NCBI GenBank assembly: GCA_003166915.1
Contig: PMUK01000068.1
Span: 1 to 38,699 of the forward strand
From: Candidatus Cybelea palsarum
GTDB lineage: Bacteria; Vulcanimicrobiota; Vulcanimicrobiia; Vulcanimicrobiales; Vulcanimicrobiaceae
Reading direction: 5' to 3'
Length of the DNA: 38,699 nucleotides
The notes under the pieces are model-generated. The model was not told the DNA's origin and ran no database searches. It was given only the letters and a program-made list of their open reading frames with translations. The position numbers were made by a program, and so were the translations under genes. This document shows, in pieces, positions 2 through 7,661 of the stretch (positions are counted from its first letter, which is position 1; each line of letters begins with the position of its first letter).

Positions 2-712
2 CTGATTCTCCTTCTTCTCATCGCTCTTGGACTGGGCGCGTGCAACGGCACGACCCCCTACGTTACGACCGTCGGAGTTCTCAAAGCCGGGACGACGCTC
101 AGGGAACGGGTCGCCGACGCGCAGTTCAATGCGTTCGCGCCGGAAGTTTCGCAACACCGCGATCTCTTTACGGTGGCGGCAACGGCGCTTCCAAAGGCTG
201 CCGTTCCGCCTCCGCCGCTGCTCCGCGCAGCGGGCGGCGGCCTCGTGGTAACGGCTCCCAATCCGCTGGCGGCGCTGCTGGTTCGCGTCCCCAGCCGCGT
301 GAACTTGGTCGTCGAATCACGGCGCGGTGACGTGAACGTCACGGATATTACCGGTAACGCGCGCATCGTTGCGCGAAGCGGTAACGTCATGTTGCTGGTG
401 CCGGGTTACGCGCAAGCCGCGGTGGGCCGGGGAAACCTCACCGTCACGATGGGAGCGAGCGATTGGCCCGGTACGCTGCATTTTTCGACGCAGCACGGCG
501 ACCTGCAGTTGCGGGTTCGCGCGAACGTCGGGTTTACCGTTCACTTACATACGGACGATGGCGCGCTCTTTACCGATTTTGGGTTGCGCGGCGTCTCGAA
601 CGGCCGCTCCGAGACCATTGACGGCAGCGTTAACGGCGGAGGCGCGCGCCGGATTGACGTCGAGACGGCTTCGGGCGGAATCCAGCTCTTACGTTTGCAA
701 CCGCAACCGTGA
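2..712 (+). CDS. Putative lipoprotein with DUF4097-like beta-solenoid region (5' partial)
   Basis: The frame is open from the window edge, so the true start lies upstream. The first visible residues are a hydrophobic stretch ending in a lipobox Leu-Gly-Ala-Cys, with the Cys codon at 41-43. This indicates a lipoprotein signal peptide and attachment to a membrane. About 60 residues later comes a region of short repeated beta-strand units with Gly-Asp-Val and Ser-Gly-Asn-Val turns (roughly codons 100-210). This resembles the DUF4097 family of putative adhesin or anti-sigma-associated beta-solenoids; the family assignment is by pattern only. No enzyme motif is visible. The stop codon lies inside the 3' end of panE on the other strand, a 24-bp convergent overlap. 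The protein is probably an envelope structural or sensory protein of unknown role. Confidence 0.6.
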   Translation: MILLLLIALGLGACNGTTPYVTTVGVLKAGTTLRERVADAQFNAFAPEVSQHRDLFTVAATALPKAAVPPPPLLRAAGGGLVVTAPNPLAALLVRVPSRVNLVVESRRGDVNVTDITGNARIVARSGNVMLLVPGYAQAAVGRGNLTVTMGASDWPGTLHFSTQHGDLQLRVRANVGFTVHLHTDDGALFTDFGLRGVSNGRSETIDGSVNGGGARRIDVETASGGIQLLRLQPQP

Positions 713-1618
713 GCGCGCGAGCAGTGCCTCTCGCGCTTTGATCAGGCGCACCATGGCCTCGTTGTACGGAGTCGGCATCGCGGTCCGGCGCCCGAACGCC
801 ACGACGGCTCCGTTGATGTGATTGATCTCGCTGGGATGACCCGATTCGAGATCGTAGGCCATCGAGCTCTTCAAATCCGCTCCGAGCGCCACCACCTCGG
901 TGACGTACTGCCACGGATTGACGAACGGCAGGTTAATCTTCAGCGCCGCGGCGACGCCGGCCGTTTCCTCGGCAAGCGCTTCGGCGAGACGCGCGGCGTT
1001 AGGGTCGTTGGGAATATCGCCGGCGTCACAATCGAGAATCGCCGACAGCGCGTTAATGGATGCGTTGACGACGAGCTTTCCCCAGAGGTGCGGGCGAATG
1101 TCGTAGACGACGGCCGCACGCAGACCGCTCCCGGTCAGAAGCTCGGTAACGGTGCGCGCGATGGTGGACGACGCGGTCGTCGATCCAATGATCGTATTGC
1201 CTGCCTGAGAGCTGCGTACGTGACCCGGCTCGATCGTCAGTGAAGACTCCGTCGTGATGCCCAAGATCACGGGAACCGCACCCCCTAAAGCCGTCTTGAT
1301 CGCATCTTCGTTGCCGACGCCGTTCTGAAGCGAGATCACCGGCGCCGTGGGATCGAGTTCGCCGGCGAAGGCGCGCAGCGCTCGTAGCGTGTCCACCGCT
1401 TTAACGAAGAGAAAGAGCATGTGCGAGCCGTACAAATCGCGAGGCCGGTCCGCGATCGCTACGAAACGCGCGGGCTCGTCGTTGACTCTAAGGCCGTTGC
1501 GCTCGACCGCTCGAACGACCTCCGCGTTGTCGTCGAGGATCGTCACGCTGCAACGATCGGCGAGATGGAACCCGAAGAGGGTCCCCATCGCACCGGCGCC
1601 GATGATGCCGATATTCAT
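689..1618 (-). CDS. panE: 2-dehydropantoate 2-reductase (ketopantoate reductase)
   Basis: This enzyme performs the NADPH-dependent reduction of ketopantoate to pantoate in the pantothenate/CoA pathway, in the cytoplasm. The 309-residue protein opens with a Rossmann dinucleotide motif GAGAMG (residues 7-12). It carries the family's central Lys region (HLWGKLVVNASINAL, about 175-190) and the C-terminal block SMAYDLESGHPSEIN, which holds the conserved Ser/Asp/Glu substrate residues. Length is normal for PanE/ApbA proteins. The ATG overlaps the TAA stop of the upstream mlaD by one base (TAATG), so it is the last gene of the mlaE-mlaF-mlaD run. Its link to lipid transport is positional only. The 3' end overlaps the convergent lipoprotein gene by 24 bp. 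Another ketoacid reductase of the same fold is possible but less likely. Confidence 0.88.
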   Translation of the reverse strand: MNIGIIGAGAMGTLFGFHLADRCSVTILDDNAEVVRAVERNGLRVNDEPARFVAIADRPRDLYGSHMLFLFVKAVDTLRALRAFAGELDPTAPVISLQNGVGNEDAIKTALGGAVPVILGITTESSLTIEPGHVRSSQAGNTIIGSTTASSTIARTVTELLTGSGLRAAVVYDIRPHLWGKLVVNASINALSAILDCDAGDIPNDPNAARLAEALAEETAGVAAALKINLPFVNPWQYVTEVVALGADLKSSMAYDLESGHPSEINHINGAVVAFGRRTAMPTPYNEAMVRLIKAREALLARSRLRLQT

Positions 1619-3180
1619 TAGAACTGATACTGAAGTCCGAAGGTGTTCCGTCGAGACGTATGCGTGATGTCCCGTTGCCCGAAGAAAAGCTGCGCGCCGG
1701 GGGCAATCTTGAAATTTCCGTACACGTCGATCATGGGATACGTAAGATCGTAGATGCGTGTTTCAAGGCCAAAGCCGCGCAACGGCTGGTACTGCCCGAG
1801 CAGGCCCATTTGCGAATAGAGAACGCCTCCGCCGAAGTGAAAGTCGCCCTTATTTGCCTCGAGCACCGCGTTCCACGTCGTATTGTTTCCGATCGCATTG
1901 GCGCCCACGACAACGCTCGTGCTGCCGTGCGGTAAGAGCACCAGATTGAGGTCTCCCAGCGGACCTCGGCTGCTCGTCAGTACGGGATTCAATCCGGGGT
2001 TGTGCTGCGGCGAGAGGCCGCTAAGTCGCACTTGAATGGCAATGAGATTGCTGGCCAGCTTGTTGAGCTGACCTTGAAGCCGCGCACGCGCCTCGGGCGA
2101 AATCCCGGTGCCTTGGGTCGTACCGCCGGTCGGCAGAACGTCGGGATATGGCGAGACGCTCGGCAGGACGGCCGGCGCCGGCGTCGCCCCGGCGTCAACG
2201 CCATAGACGCTGCTCGTTCCTCCAAGCTGACCCAGGAGCGAGTTGGCTCGCTGCATGACTGCATCGAGATTGGCGACCGTGCTGCGGACCTGCGCTTGGG
2301 TTTGCGGATTACCCGTCACCGTACGCAAGTCTTTGGTGAGTGCGGCGATCGTTGCCGTCGTATCCGCAATGCTCTGCGTGGTCGCAAGGATATTTGCTTT
2401 TAGGCGAGGGTCGGTCGCAAGATTCTCGAGCGCGCCCATCGAGTGGTTGAGCGAGACGGCCGTCGACGAAAACTGGTCGAGCAGGAATCCGACCTTCTTC
2501 GAATCGGTGGTCGCGGCGCCATTGAGCGTGGCGGAGAGCTGTTCGACGTTGGTGCTGGCGCTAGCGAGACTGCTCTGCAAGTTTGCACCGACCGCCAGCA
2601 ACTCGCTCGAAAGCTGCCGCAGCGAGCTCTTCGTCGTGATCGTCAGCTCGTTCGCGTTGTTGAGCGTCGTTTGAAGTGTGTCCAGCAGTCGCGGCGTGCG
2701 CTTCTCCAGCAGCGCCATCAGCGAGTCGAGGTGCTTGATCTCTCCCTGCCCCTCTTCGAGCAGATCGCCGATACTTGTGGCATTCACGCCGCGTGGCTGC
2801 TCGTCGACGGGCAGGACTTCGCGCGGGAGCAACGCGATCGGCGGTTTCTCCCTCGGCGGCACGATCACCACGGCGGGCGAGCCGGTCAACGGAGCTTGGA
2901 TGAGGAAGCGCGAGGCAACCGGTATGTTGATATCGTGGTTCATTGCCAAGATCACATCGACCGTGTTATCCGGCAGGAGCTGTACGGAGTCGACCGCACC
3001 CGCGTCGACGCCGCTAAAGTAGACTTGCGCCCCCGGCGTCAAGCCGGACGCAGACTCAAAGCGAACTCCCACGCGATATCCGGTATGCCGAGTCCCGAAA
3101 TCGGTCACCAGATAAAAGACTCCGAAGAGCAGGAGCAGCGCGACTATCGTGAACGCACCGACCTGGGCCTGCTTCGTCAT
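1618..3180 (-). CDS. mlaD: MlaD-family MCE protein with C-terminal beta-barrel-like domain
   Basis: This is the substrate-binding/bridge subunit of an Mla-type phospholipid ABC transporter, anchored in the inner membrane. Visible order in 520 residues: an N-terminal transmembrane helix (about 9-27); one MCE domain (about 35-110); a long helical, Ser/Thr/Asn/Leu-rich region (about 140-330) likely to form a tube or coiled coil; a Pro-rich linker (about 335-365); and a terminal segment of alternating beta-strands (about 400-520) ending Tyr-Gln-Phe. E. coli MlaD is about 180 residues and has no such tail. A terminal aromatic residue is the usual signal for outer-membrane barrel assembly. A barrel-bearing MlaD is known from the diderm Firmicute Veillonella parvula, so a transenvelope bridge is plausible. 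An AAGGAG site lies 4 nt before the ATG. It is followed directly by panE and preceded by mlaF and mlaE. Confidence 0.85.
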   Translation of the reverse strand: MTKQAQVGAFTIVALLLLFGVFYLVTDFGTRHTGYRVGVRFESASGLTPGAQVYFSGVDAGAVDSVQLLPDNTVDVILAMNHDINIPVASRFLIQAPLTGSPAVVIVPPREKPPIALLPREVLPVDEQPRGVNATSIGDLLEEGQGEIKHLDSLMALLEKRTPRLLDTLQTTLNNANELTITTKSSLRQLSSELLAVGANLQSSLASASTNVEQLSATLNGAATTDSKKVGFLLDQFSSTAVSLNHSMGALENLATDPRLKANILATTQSIADTTATIAALTKDLRTVTGNPQTQAQVRSTVANLDAVMQRANSLLGQLGGTSSVYGVDAGATPAPAVLPSVSPYPDVLPTGGTTQGTGISPEARARLQGQLNKLASNLIAIQVRLSGLSPQHNPGLNPVLTSSRGPLGDLNLVLLPHGSTSVVVGANAIGNNTTWNAVLEANKGDFHFGGGVLYSQMGLLGQYQPLRGFGLETRIYDLTYPMIDVYGNFKIAPGAQLFFGQRDITHTSRRNTFGLQYQF

Positions 3181-3214: not shown

Positions 3215-3985
3215 CTATATTTGAATCGGCCCCGCCTCGGAGCCTTGGAGGAACTGCTGAACGATCGGGTTGGGGGAGTTGCGGATTCGATCCGCCGTGT
3301 CGTACGCGATGATGGCACCCTCGAAGAGCATTGCGATATAATCCGCCATTGTGAAGATCGAGGGCAGGTCGTGTGAGATCACGACCGCCGTTCCGTTGAG
3401 CTTCGAGCGCAGTTTCAGAATCGTCTCGGTGATCAACTTGCTGACGATGGGATCGAGGCCGGTCGTCGGCTCGTCGTAGAGGACCAGTGCCGGCCGGGTA
3501 ACGATGGCGCGCGCGAACCCCGCGCGTTTAAGCATGCCGCCCGAAAGCTCCGCCGGCAGGTCGTCGTACGCGTGAGCGAGTCCCACGCTATCGAGCGCCT
3601 CGAAGACCGTCTGCCGAATCTCCGCGCGCGAGAGTTTCGTGTGCTCGCGCAGCGGAAGCGCCACGTTATCGCCCACACTGAGGCTGTCGAGGAGCGCGGC
3701 GAACTGAAACGAGAGGCCGATTTTTTGCCGCATGACGTTGACCTGCTCTTCGGACAGGTGGCACAGGTCGCTGCCAAGCACGTAGATGTGGCCTTCGCTG
3801 GGAAGCAGTAGGCCGTCGAGCAGTCGCAGGATCGTGGACTTGCCGGCTCCCGAGAGTCCGATGATGCAGGTGATGGCACCCTCGACGACGTCGAGGCTGC
3901 AGTTCTTCAATACGATACGGTCGCCGAACGAGAGCGTCACGCCATCGACTCGCGCGATGAGACTGCGACCATTTTTTGAGTTCAT
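3215..3985 (-). CDS. mlaF: Mla-type phospholipid ABC transporter ATP-binding protein
   Basis: This is the ATPase of the MlaE-MlaF-MlaD lipid transporter, on the cytoplasmic face. The 256-residue ABC protein shows Walker A GLSGAGKST (about 43-51), a signature loop LSGGMLKRAGFARA (about 146-159), Walker B LVLYDEP followed by the D-loop TGLDP, and a switch His in VVISHDLPS. The LSGGM-K/R-R variant signature is typical of MlaF/Ttg2A. The ATG overlaps the mlaE stop by 4 bp (ATGA), indicating translational coupling. No MlaB-like STAS partner is encoded nearby, unlike in E. coli. Confidence 0.93.
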   Translation of the reverse strand: MNSKNGRSLIARVDGVTLSFGDRIVLKNCSLDVVEGAITCIIGLSGAGKSTILRLLDGLLLPSEGHIYVLGSDLCHLSEEQVNVMRQKIGLSFQFAALLDSLSVGDNVALPLREHTKLSRAEIRQTVFEALDSVGLAHAYDDLPAELSGGMLKRAGFARAIVTRPALVLYDEPTTGLDPIVSKLITETILKLRSKLNGTAVVISHDLPSIFTMADYIAMLFEGAIIAYDTADRIRNSPNPIVQQFLQGSEAGPIQI

Positions 3986-4758
3986 CGGCCGCCGAAGAGC
4001 AGCAACGAGAGAACGAAATTCGAAGTGAATATCAGAATGATTGCCAACACGACGGAAAACGTCGTGGACTGCCCGACTCCCGCGGCGCCGCCGCGCGTGG
4101 AGAGGCCTTGGTATGCGCCGACCATCGCGATGATCGTCGCAAAAACGAAGGTCTTGAGCAAGCCTTTGACCACGTCGCTAAAATCGATCGCCTGACGGAC
4201 GGAGCGGATGAACTCGTGGTATGGGATGTGTGCGTACTCGCGAGCGATCCACATGCCGCCGACAATCGAGACCACGTCGGCGAAGATCGTGAGCAACGGC
4301 AGCATCAAGAGCAACGCCACAAGGCGCGGCACGACCAGGAACCGCGCCGGTTCCACGCCCATCGAGCGCAGTGCTTCAACCTGTTCGGTGACGACCATCG
4401 AGCCGATTTCGGCAGCGATCGCGGCACCCACGCGCCCGGCGACAACGACGGCCGTGAGCATCGGGCCGAGCTCGCGCACGGCGGCGTACGCCACGGCTCC
4501 CCCTACGAAACTGGAAAAGCCGTAGGCGACCGCCTGTTGCGCCGACTCGAGCGAAATGACCATACCGGTGAAGAGCGACGTCAACAGGACGATGACCAGC
4601 GACTGCACCCCGAGCAAGGCGCATTGCGACACCGTCTCCGCGACGCGGACGCGAAGCCGCACCAAAAAGCCGAGCGAATCCGCGGTAAGCAGCGTCACGC
4701 CGCCGGCATACTCGAAAAAGTCGTTCGTCACGCGCCCGACCCGAGCCAGAATTCTCAC
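3982..4758 (-). CDS. mlaE: MlaE-family lipid ABC transporter permease
   Basis: This is the inner-membrane permease of the Mla lipid transporter. The 258-residue protein has an N-terminal interfacial helix region, then five or so hydrophobic segments typical of the MlaE/DUF140 family. The conserved central block runs ELGPMLTAVVVAGRVGAAIAA-like over residues about 115-136, followed by the EIGSM-V-EQ-EALR-MG motif that contacts the ATPase, and EPARFLVVPR. Length matches the family (about 260). It starts inside the end of the upstream 112-aa gene with a 4-bp overlap and ends in a 4-bp overlap with mlaF. Gene order mlaE-mlaF-mlaD is as in other bacteria, but no mlaC or mlaA is present in the window. 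Confidence 0.92.
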   Translation of the reverse strand: MRILARVGRVTNDFFEYAGGVTLLTADSLGFLVRLRVRVAETVSQCALLGVQSLVIVLLTSLFTGMVISLESAQQAVAYGFSSFVGGAVAYAAVRELGPMLTAVVVAGRVGAAIAAEIGSMVVTEQVEALRSMGVEPARFLVVPRLVALLLMLPLLTIFADVVSIVGGMWIAREYAHIPYHEFIRSVRQAIDFSDVVKGLLKTFVFATIIAMVGAYQGLSTRGGAAGVGQSTTFSVVLAIILIFTSNFVLSLLLFGGR

Positions 4759-5093
4759 GGCGAACCCTCCGCGCCGGCCAGCGCATTCAACACGGCCTGC
4801 GTCGCTTCGATGCGCTTGACGGCGACGCCGCGTTCGGCAGTGAGATTGAAAACGACCTGATTGGTATGTTCGAGGCGGCGATCCACGTCGCGCAGATGTG
4901 CGCGTGCTTCCCGATCGAAGCTCTCAAAGTACCGGCGTACCGCGCTGCGGTAGGCGTGCCCCGCCCCGGCGTCGACCTCGTCCTTTTCAAGAGCCGTCTC
5001 GATCGCGCGCTGCGCGCGTTTCATCGCGCCATCGGTGATGTGGAACGCTCCCACGCGCGCCACCAGATCCCGCAGCCCGGGATCAGCCGGCAT
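4755..5093 (-). CDS. Hypothetical helical protein upstream of mlaE
   Basis: I do not recognise this 112-residue protein. It has no signal peptide, membrane segment or Cys. The sequence is almost entirely amphipathic helix, with charged heptad-like runs (about 20-60 and 65-105, including [20 protein letters not shown]), so a small coiled-coil or helical bundle is likely. It overlaps the end of rph by 11 bp and the start of mlaE by 4 bp, so it is embedded in the operon and probably coupled to both. By position it could be an accessory or adaptor of the MlaE-MlaF complex, but nothing in the sequence proves this. Confidence 0.65.
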
Positions 5094-5823
5094 GAACGGG
5101 CGAAGGGCCTAGCGCGGCGCGCTGTACTTCGAAGAGCCGGCGAATTCCGCCCTCGGCGAGCGCCAGGAGCGCCTCGAGCTCGCGCCGGTCGAATGGCGCC
5201 GCTTCGGCCGTGCCCTGCAGCTCGACGAAACGTCCAGCGTCGGTCATGAAGACATTCATATCCACCAACGCCGCACTATCCTCGTCGTAGGCAAGATCGA
5301 GGAGCGTACGGCCGCCCACGATCCCCACGCTAGTCGCCGCCACCATCGCTTGCAAGGGCCAACGCTCGCGTACCGCCGCATCGAAGCGCGTGCGCAACGC
5401 CAGCTCGAGCGCGACGTACGCTCCGGTGACGGCCGCGGTCCGCGTGCCGCCGTCGGCTTGAATCACATCGCAATCCAGCCAGATCGTCCGCTCGCCCAGC
5501 TTCGCCGTGTCGGTTACGGCGCGCAGAGCCCGCCCAATAATGCGCTGTATTTCGTGCGTACGGCCACCTAGCCGTCCTTTGGAAACCTCGCGTTGCGTGC
5601 GTTCTTGCGTCGCTCGCGGCAGCATGGCGTATTCGGCGGTCACCCAGCCGAGGCCGCGCCCTTTCATCCAGATTGGAACGCGATCTTCAACCGAGGCGGC
5701 GCAGAGGACGCGAGTGTTCCCCACGCTGATCAGCGCGCTGCCTTCGGCGTATTTGAGGAAGCCGGGCTCGATCGAGACCGGCCGCAGCTCGTCGGGTCTT
5801 CTTCCATCGGACCGAGCCATCAC
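5083..5823 (-). CDS. rph: Ribonuclease PH
   Basis: This phosphorolytic 3'-5' exoribonuclease trims tRNA 3' ends using phosphate. The 246 residues match the usual length. The family start RxDGRxxDELRPV is present at about 4-16. It is followed by SVEDRVP, the [19 protein letters not shown] block, and the phosphate/RNA-binding stretch [26 protein letters not shown] (about 75-100). Metal-site residues fall in the [15 protein letters not shown] block (about 117-131). The first codon is GTG overlapping the glmS stop as GTGA; an ATG follows immediately at 5820. Its 3' end overlaps the next small gene by 11 bp. Confidence 0.95.
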
Positions 5824-7661
5824 TCGACCGTGACGGTCTTAGCCAGGTTGCGGGGCTGATCGACGTCTTTGCCTTCGATATCGGCGATGTGATAGGCCAA
5901 AAGCTGTAGCGGAATGACGTTAACGATCGGCGAGAGCAGCTCGTGGACCCGCGGAACCCAAAAGATGTGATCGGCAACGCTCTTCGCCTCGTCGTCGCCG
6001 ATATTTGCTACGACGATCACGGGCGCTTCGCGCGCCTTCGACTCCATAAGATTTGAAAGCATCTTCTCTCGAACGCGGTCCTCGGTCATGATACCGACGA
6101 CCGGAACGCTCGGATCGAGCAATGCGATCGGGCCGTGTTTCATCTCGCCGGCCGGATAGCCCTCAGCGTGGATATACGAAATCTCTTTCAGTTTGAGGGC
6201 GCCTTCCAGCGCCGTCGGAAAGTTGACGTAGCGGCCGATGAAAAGCACGCTTTGCGACTTGCGCAACTCGCGTGCCACGCGGCGAATCTCGTCAGACATG
6301 TTCAGAACGATGTCGACGGCTGCCGGAAGAAGCTTCGTGCCGTCGGCGATCGCGCGTAGACTTGCCTCGCCGGTGGTTCCGCGCAAACGCGCGAGATAGA
6401 GCGCGAAGAGCGTCAACGCTGCCACTTGGGAGACGTAGGTTTTGGTTGCGGCAACGCCGATTTCCGGTCCGCCCCGAGTATAGAGCATGCCGTCCGCGAG
6501 CCGAGTCAAATGGGATCCGAGCACGTTGCAAATACCCAAGACGCCGCAGCCCGATTGCTTTGCGATCCGCACGGCCTCAATGGTGTCCGCGGTCTCGCCC
6601 GACTGCGACATCGCAATCACCAGGGTCGTGGGATCGATGACCGGGTCGCCGTAGCGAAACTCGCTCGCCAGCTCCATTTCGACGGGCAGATGCACGAGCG
6701 AACGCAGCAGATACATGCCGACCAGTCCCGCATGAAAAGCGGTACCGCAACCGGTAATGGCGATCTTACTGAGCCCTTGGAGCCGCTCGGGGGTGATCGT
6801 GCCGAGCTCGGCACCGAGATGGACGTCGCCCGAGTCGTCGATCCGCCCGCTCAAAGTCTCCTTGATGACCTGCGGCTGCTCGAAGATCTCTTTGAGCATG
6901 AAATGCTTGAAACCGCTCTTCTCGGCCGAGCCCGGGTCCCAGGTAACCGCAATGGGCTCTCGTTCGATGCGCGAGCCGGCATAGTCGGTCAACCGAAATC
7001 CATCACGGCCCACGACGGCGATTTCGCCCTCCTGCAGAATGACCTCGCGCCGCGTGTACGGCAGAATCGCCGGAGTATCGGAGGCGACGTACATCTCACC
7101 GTCGCCGATGCCGATCACCAGCGGGCTGGCGCCGTTGCGCGCAAAGACCAGATGCTCGGGATCGTCGCTGGAGATCACGCCGAGGGCGTAGGCCCCGCGG
7201 ACCTCGGGCAGCGTGCGCCGCACGGCCTCTTCTAGATTTCCGTCGTAGTGGAGCTCGATAAGGTGCGCCAGTACTTCGGTGTCGGTTTGGCTCGTGAAGA
7301 GGTGACCGAGCTCGGCGAGGCGCGCGCGAAGAGATGCGTAGTTTTCGATGATCCCGTTGTGGACGACGGCGATCCTCTCCGTGCAATCCAGGTGTGGATG
7401 GGCGTTGGCATCCGAAGGGACCCCGTGCGTCGCCCAGCGAGTGTGCCCGATGCCGACGGCGCCTGAGAGCGCCTCGCCGTTGTTTAGGCGCTCGGCGAGG
7501 CGCGAAAGCTTTCCCTCGGCCTTGGTACCCGCCAGTCTCCCCGACGCGTCGATGACCGCGATGCCGGCGCTATCGTACCCTCGATACTCGAGACGCCGCA
7601 GCGCGTCGAGGATGATGGGAACGCTGTCGCGCTGGCCGATGTATCCGACGATCCCGCACAT
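5820..7661 (-). CDS. glmS: Glutamine--fructose-6-phosphate aminotransferase (isomerizing)
   Basis: GlmS makes glucosamine-6-phosphate from fructose-6-phosphate and glutamine, the entry step to peptidoglycan and other amino-sugar polymers. The 613 residues compare with 609 in E. coli. The mature N-terminal nucleophile Cys2 follows Met1 (MCGIVGYIG). The class II amidotransferase domain includes GHTRWATHG and fills about 1-240. Two SIS isomerase domains follow (about 290-430 and 460-600), including the CGTAFHAG and SQSGETADT loops and the [14 protein letters not shown] block. The protein ends in the conserved KTVTVE. Only 6 bp separate it from rpoZ, so there is no room for the glmS ribozyme found in Bacillus-type genes. 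Confidence 0.97.

Follow-up and report, generated by a model that had tools for sequence, protein, structure and literature searches.

A putative three-component Mla transporter with a predicted C-terminal beta-barrel on MlaD in Candidatus Cybelea palsarum

The mlaD locus

The window, which is the whole stretch of DNA analysed (38,699 nucleotides from Candidatus Cybelea palsarum), contains an mlaD gene with mlaE and mlaF directly upstream on the same strand. These genes form part of the following run:

689..1618 (-): panE-like 2-dehydropantoate 2-reductase, downstream of mlaD (TIGR00745, above cut-off)
1618..3180 (-): mlaD, MCE protein of 520 aa with a predicted barrel (ORF with ATG start; PF02470, E 7.2e-11; profile)
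3215..3985 (-): mlaF, ABC ATPase (PRK11831.1/MlaF as best NCBIfam row, E 5.3e-62, below the equivalog cut-off; PF00005)
3982..4758 (-): mlaE, permease (PF02405, E 2.2e-73; the only MlaE match in the genome)
4755..5093 (-): orf112, small protein with no family assigned (no Pfam match)
5083..5823 (-): rph, ribonuclease PH, upstream in the gene run (TIGR01966, above cut-off)
5820..7661 (-): glmS, upstream in the gene run (TIGR01135, above cut-off)

Overlaps of 4 nt were found between mlaF and mlaE, mlaE and orf112, and rph and glmS, and one of 11 nt between orf112 and rph. The original prediction had envisaged a bridge across the envelope made by one protein. This was not upheld, since mlaE and mlaF adjoin mlaD and the genome (94.8% complete) holds one MlaE match and one MlaD match. 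A protein pattern scan recovered nine related loci, the nearest 94-96% identical. We rejected the reading of the window's mlaD as a gene fragment or frameshift, because relatives carry the gene intact.

In three genomes of the genus (G040, G039 and G042; loci L075, L076 and L077) mlaD was located 5.8-6.2 kb from mlaF. The linkage of mlaD to mlaEF is therefore not absolute. Despite the displaced mlaD, rph, orf112, mlaE and mlaF remained together in all three. At locus L005, the same place as in G040, the ORFs between mlaD and mlaF include CheB/CheR-like ones, as judged by eye. On the other side of mlaD, a toastrack protein (DUF4097/LiaG-like; 173-712, +) is convergent to panE, and the order mlaD-panE-toastrack was seen again in near relatives.

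The N-terminal half of MlaD, the helical region and the spacer

The following regions were delimited within the mlaD gene:

3100..3171 (-): N-terminal transmembrane helix, residues 4-27 (AlphaFold2 helix with low pLDDT; hydrophobic stretch)
2893..3081 (-): MCE (MlaD) domain, residues 34-96 by Pfam (PF02470; the genome search gives 2890-3081)
2221..2772 (-): helical region, residues 137-320, the presumed tunnel (amphipathic alpha periodicity; helices in the model)
2101..2220 (-): spacer rich in Pro, Ser, Thr, Gly and Ala, residues ~321-360, then a short helix at 362-379 (residue counts, 50-row alignment)
1621..2043 (-): predicted ten-stranded C-terminal beta-barrel domain, residues 380-520, ending in YQF (AlphaFold2; structural matches to outer-membrane barrels; hydrophobic alternation in the family)

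A single PF02470 stretch was detected in the protein, above the gathering score. Against TIGR04430, the equivalog model for E. coli-type MlaD, it scored 41.6 bits, short of the cut-off of 135. The full-length AlphaFold2 model was poor (pLDDT 41) and usable for secondary structure alone; it placed helices, with low confidence, at residues 138-318, a helical stretch of about 180 residues. In the 50-row alignment the alpha-periodic hydrophobic moment was strong over residues 137-320 (z 7.8), a value equalled by 0 of 1000 shuffles. The MCE domain, the helical stretch and the beta-rich end finishing in Tyr-Gln-Phe that had been read from the sequence were all recovered (as PF02470, the alpha periodicity and ten predicted strands, respectively), with adjusted boundaries. 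The helical part had been put at about 190 residues; it is nearer 180, and a Pro/Ser/Thr-rich spacer comes between it and the predicted barrel. The beta-rich end was located correctly apart from its start, which lies slightly earlier, at residue 380 and not 395.

From position 320 to the start of the first strand, counting the short helix, 42 sequences of the window's class have 38-74 residues, of which Pro, Ser, Thr, Gly or Ala make up 51-78%. In eight sequences of other classes the same interval was 10-15 residues. The window's class is thus marked by a longer, low-complexity stretch that separates the helices from the barrel, a trait added by the present analysis. These spacers look flexible, and they are relevant to the choice between a conduit role and an anchor role for the barrel. 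With such a spacer in between, a tunnel that leads directly into the barrel is difficult to envisage, which leaves the continuous tube of the original prediction doubtful and favours an anchor role.

The C-terminal domain

Residues 355-520 were modelled with AlphaFold2 on an alignment of nine sequences. The best of the five models (pLDDT 77.5, pTM 0.65) had a short helix followed by ten strands, at residues 380-389, 408-418, 421-430, 433-444, 447-454, 457-464, 470-477, 483-493, 496-503 and 511-519; the other four were poor (39.6-51.0). The full-length model placed ten strands in the same positions. Among the 50 Foldseek matches listed for the best model, most were outer-membrane barrels and a few were thioesterase and hotdog-fold chains; two had E <0.001. 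VIA-align was applied to Foldseek's matches as a second comparison. It ranked OpcA first (Z 16.5, 141 residues aligned, rmsd 3.2), followed by a Legionella porin (15.2) and Pla (14.9), and the designed ten-strand transmembrane barrel TMB10 reached Z 14.5 (129 aligned, rmsd 2.6). On this model, the best of five, the C-terminal domain is predicted to be a closed barrel whose ten strands occupy residues 380-519, which agrees with the earlier expectation of a barrel. A soluble beta sandwich was rejected as its fold, since the model resembles closed barrels.

A closed barrel could also be soluble. The domain might be a lipid-binding periplasmic barrel of the nitrobindin or lipocalin kind, placed at the end of the helices, with MlaD unanchored in the outer membrane, and soluble folds do occur among the structural matches (BFA1, Z 12.2; DUF3598, 12.1; nitrobindin, ~11; fatty-acid-binding folds, ~8). 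They ranked below the six best VIA-align matches, which were all outer-membrane or designed transmembrane barrels. The last residue was Phe, Tyr or Trp in 40 of the 50 aligned sequences, the window's own YQF counted. Most of the family-conserved Gly (426, 452, 459, 501 and 515), together with Asp485 and Arg/Lys503, lay on the polar faces of the strands and only one conserved Gly/Ala (488) and Pro417 on the opposite face, although the faces were divided by hydrophobicity and the charge contrast is therefore partly built in. In addition, a construct of the ten-stranded barrel of Veillonella parvula MlaD was found in outer-membrane fractions by Grasekamp et al. 2023 (PMC10665443). We therefore regard a soluble barrel as quite improbable.

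Hydrophobic alternation along the barrel was significant at the family level, where 33 of 5000 shuffles reached the observed value. For the window's sequence taken singly (residues 405-520) it was not significant, on either the Kyte-Doolittle scale (603 of 2000 shuffles) or the octanol scale (285 of 2000). The polar strand face was somewhat more conserved than the other (entropy 1.66 vs 1.91), but not significantly so (p 0.32). The C-terminal aromatic residue, the alternation in the family, the Gly and Asp/Arg of the polar faces and the even number of strands together suggest that the barrel inserts in the outer membrane; an even number would leave the N- and C-termini both in the periplasm. 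The barrel domain alone, searched with three sequences from three groups, matched no Pfam or NCBIfam model. Its first loop, predicted to be extracellular, has 18-19 residues in families f1 and f2 and 6-7 in the others. A vicinal Cys-Cys pair was observed in this loop in 10 of the 50 MlaD sequences (L010, L031-L038 and L040; it is lacking in L039), and the window has none.

Mla partners and the cell envelope

The original prediction had also stated that MlaA, MlaB and MlaC are not encoded near mlaD. For MlaA (PF04333) and MlaC (PF05494) this could be extended to the phylum: neither was detected in any of its 149 genomes, the window's own among them, and both models detected the E. coli and Caulobacter controls. 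For MlaB it held for the neighbourhood. A search with STAS_2 gave 11 matches in the window's genome, nine of them over the cut-off and none on the window's contig, so the absence of MlaB is limited to the surroundings of mlaD and does not extend to the genome.

The presence of BamA and an outer membrane, on which the barrel reading depends, was supported by the gene content of the same genome. It encodes BamA, a single ORF that carries Omp85 and three POTRA stretches, in a cluster with LPS-type genes (in order TamB, BamA, three OmpH-like ORFs, LpxD, LpxC, a FabA/FabZ-like ORF, an LpxA-like ORF and LpxB). One of the three OmpH-like ORFs was below the Pfam cut-off. A second TamB is located elsewhere in the genome. 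A POTRA and Omp85 protein and LPS genes in one genome are what we looked for in a diderm host. A search of the window's genome for LptD (PF04453) was negative, but of 14 controls the model detects just E. coli and Caulobacter, so this negative says little. An LPS-covered outer membrane is described in thin section for the cultured relative Vulcanimicrobium alpinus (PMC9758169), and LPS and BamA genes were earlier recorded for the phylum (PMC6664022). For Vulcanimicrobium, the polar lipids comprise glycolipids and lipids recorded as unidentified.

Distribution and descent within the phylum

A first MlaD profile (510 positions), built from eight sequences that were all from the window's phylum, Candidatus Eremiobacterota (Vulcanimicrobiota), matched 141 of the 149 phylum genomes in which it was searched. 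With the class counted from the f1-f3 labels, these were 112 of 117 genomes in the window's class and 29 of 32 outside it. The matches reached at least position 489 in 110 of the 112 class genomes, some of them in two pieces; in the remaining two (G081 and G023) they were cut at contig ends. For a second barrel-bearing profile, eight proteins from the other classes of the phylum were used. Of the 32 genomes outside the class, 24 matched it right up to the final position; eight of these 24 had supplied the profile, and in G010 the match was in two pieces. Elsewhere outside the class it stopped short in three genomes (G142, G004 and G014) and gave no match in two. In family f6, the MlaD matches of all three genomes (G006, G007 and G008) were no more than marginal (E 8.6e-6 to 1.4e-4), although two of the genomes have a completeness of 97-98%; the MlaD system may have been lost from this family. 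The barrel on MlaD is therefore near-universal in the window's phylum, a result added by the present analysis.

Compared with hhalign, the barrel of the window's family matched that of f3 with 99.9% probability (E 3.3e-37) and that of the other classes with 97.8% (E 7.1e-13, 108 columns). In a tree of 50 MlaD rows, f1, f2, f3 and the other classes were each set off by one branch; L053 and L054 were flagged as long branches. The agreement of the tree with the family labels fits vertical descent within the phylum. A recent transfer of mlaD was rejected on the same agreement, read with these two warnings. An ancient origin had earlier been argued from a gene neighbourhood different from that of V. 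parvula. This is weak support, as a neighbourhood alone does not show antiquity; better evidence for age comes from the tree and from the between-phylum analysis published in PMC10665443, as its main text presents it. Outside the phylum, barrel-bearing relatives were sought among plasmids; of the five MlaD matches the best covered 65%, and none reached the C-terminus.

Comparison with known MCE systems

Like the window's protein, E. coli MlaD has a transmembrane helix and an MCE domain and has MlaE and MlaF as partners. Unlike it, E. coli MlaD lacks the long helical extension and the barrel and operates with MlaA and MlaC. PqiB, LetB (YebT) and mycobacterial Mce1 were weak sequence matches in a profile search of the PDB. 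In these proteins MCE rings or helices form periplasmic tunnels; PqiB and LetB have several MCE domains and Mce1 is a heterohexamer. To our knowledge, none of the three has a single-chain C-terminal outer-membrane barrel. For Mce1 this also agrees with the main text of PMC10665443. The best PDB profile match was chain I of 13hr, a Mce/MlaD domain-containing protein of 312 aa (residues 7-253, E 6.8e-9), in which the aligned part stops before the window's barrel.

The closest counterpart is the MlaD of V. parvula. In the main text of PMC10665443 it is described as a protein of 419 residues with a transmembrane helix, an MCE domain, about 150 helical residues and ten antiparallel strands. The window's MlaD shares this order of a transmembrane helix, a single MCE domain, elongated helices and a predicted ten-stranded C-terminal barrel. 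Both systems have mlaE and mlaF partners and neither MlaA nor MlaC, and both hosts are LPS-bearing diderms with BamA and TamB. The window's protein is longer (520 vs 419 residues), as are its helices (about 180 vs about 150), and we list as further differences, seen from the side of the window alone, the low-complexity spacer before the barrel and the upstream orf112, rph and glmS. The domain order and the ten-strand model thus favour the Veillonella-type MlaD that had been proposed. Since every sequence-level feature tested was found, the window's MlaD belongs, by its predicted architecture and the published description, to the V. parvula barrel-MlaD type.

This membership is unsurprising given the survey of 1083 genomes in PMC10665443. 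As summarised in the main text, C-terminal barrels were inferred there for 103 of the MlaD sequences examined, or about 10%, and barrel-MlaD is widely distributed in diderm Terrabacteria, in which MlaA, MlaB and MlaC are absent. The main text, whose species list is placed in the supplements, contains neither Eremiobacter* nor WPS-2. The architecture as such is therefore already published, and what is added here is the near-universal barrel in this phylum, the spacer of the class and orf112. The present results extend barrel-MlaD through a phylum only recently brought into culture. They support a conclusion already in print, namely that diderm Terrabacteria as a rule have MlaEFD with a long MlaD and that it is the six-part system of E. 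coli which is exceptional.

Proposed mechanism

We suggest that MlaE, MlaF and the elongated MlaD make up a three-component Mla lipid transporter that works without MlaA and MlaC. At the inner membrane, the transmembrane helix and MCE domain of MlaD would rest on the ABC transporter MlaEF and presumably form a ring of six, and the amphipathic helices would cross the periplasm, presumably as a hydrophobic tunnel of six helices. BamA would insert the ten-stranded barrel of each chain in the outer membrane and so fix the outer end of the tunnel. ATP hydrolysis by MlaF would drive lipid movement, most likely retrograde (from the outer to the inner membrane), the direction put forward for V. parvula. 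The hexamer, the hydrophobic tunnel and the ATP-driven retrograde movement are drawn by analogy with V. parvula, PqiB and E. coli MlaFEDB.

As a whole explanation, MlaEF with a barrel-anchored tunnel MlaD is likely. Counted against it are the low pLDDT of the full-length model, the one confident C-terminal model of five, the matches to soluble barrels, the non-significant alternation in the single sequence and face conservation, the absence of an LptD match, and the linkage broken in three genomes.

In the window's class, the barrels hung on spacers would act as anchors that allow the tunnel mouth to dock against the outer membrane's inner leaflet, and we prefer this role to that of lipid pores. 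A conduit would arise if strands of several chains fused into a larger, TolC-like barrel through which lipid passes. Fusion of this kind is raised in the discussion of PMC10665443, and six chains would be available for it. However, our best model is a single-chain ten-strand barrel, the barrel is called too narrow for lipid in PMC10665443, and the spacer of the class would not be expected to line six chains up with a shared pore. We consider a fused conduit very improbable.

The direction of transport cannot be read from sequence, so the system could also be anterograde (from the inner to the outer membrane), or act on glycolipids rather than glycerophospholipids. In V. parvula, mlaD mutants are sensitive to detergent and hypervesiculate, and their vesicles are enriched in PE, which is taken as a sign of retrograde traffic (main text of PMC10665443). 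In the light of these vesicles, anterograde or glycolipid transport by the window's system appears unlikely, and retrograde movement is retained as the preferred reading.

The orf112 protein

Within the phylum, orf112 was found in 110 of the 117 genomes of the window's class and in none of the 32 outside it. The encoded protein is small, charged and helical-looking. It is a candidate accessory subunit of MlaEF. A variant of the mechanism particular to the window's class, Eremiobacteria, would combine six barrels tethered by flexible spacers instead of prolonging the helical tunnel, so that the tunnel mouth and the anchors move independently of each other, with the orf112 protein as a new MlaEF subunit in place of MlaB. 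The replacement of MlaB was suggested by the 4-nt overlap with mlaE, by the occurrence in the class and by the fact that orf112 stays with mlaEF where mlaD has moved; the variant as a whole is tentative and rather unlikely.
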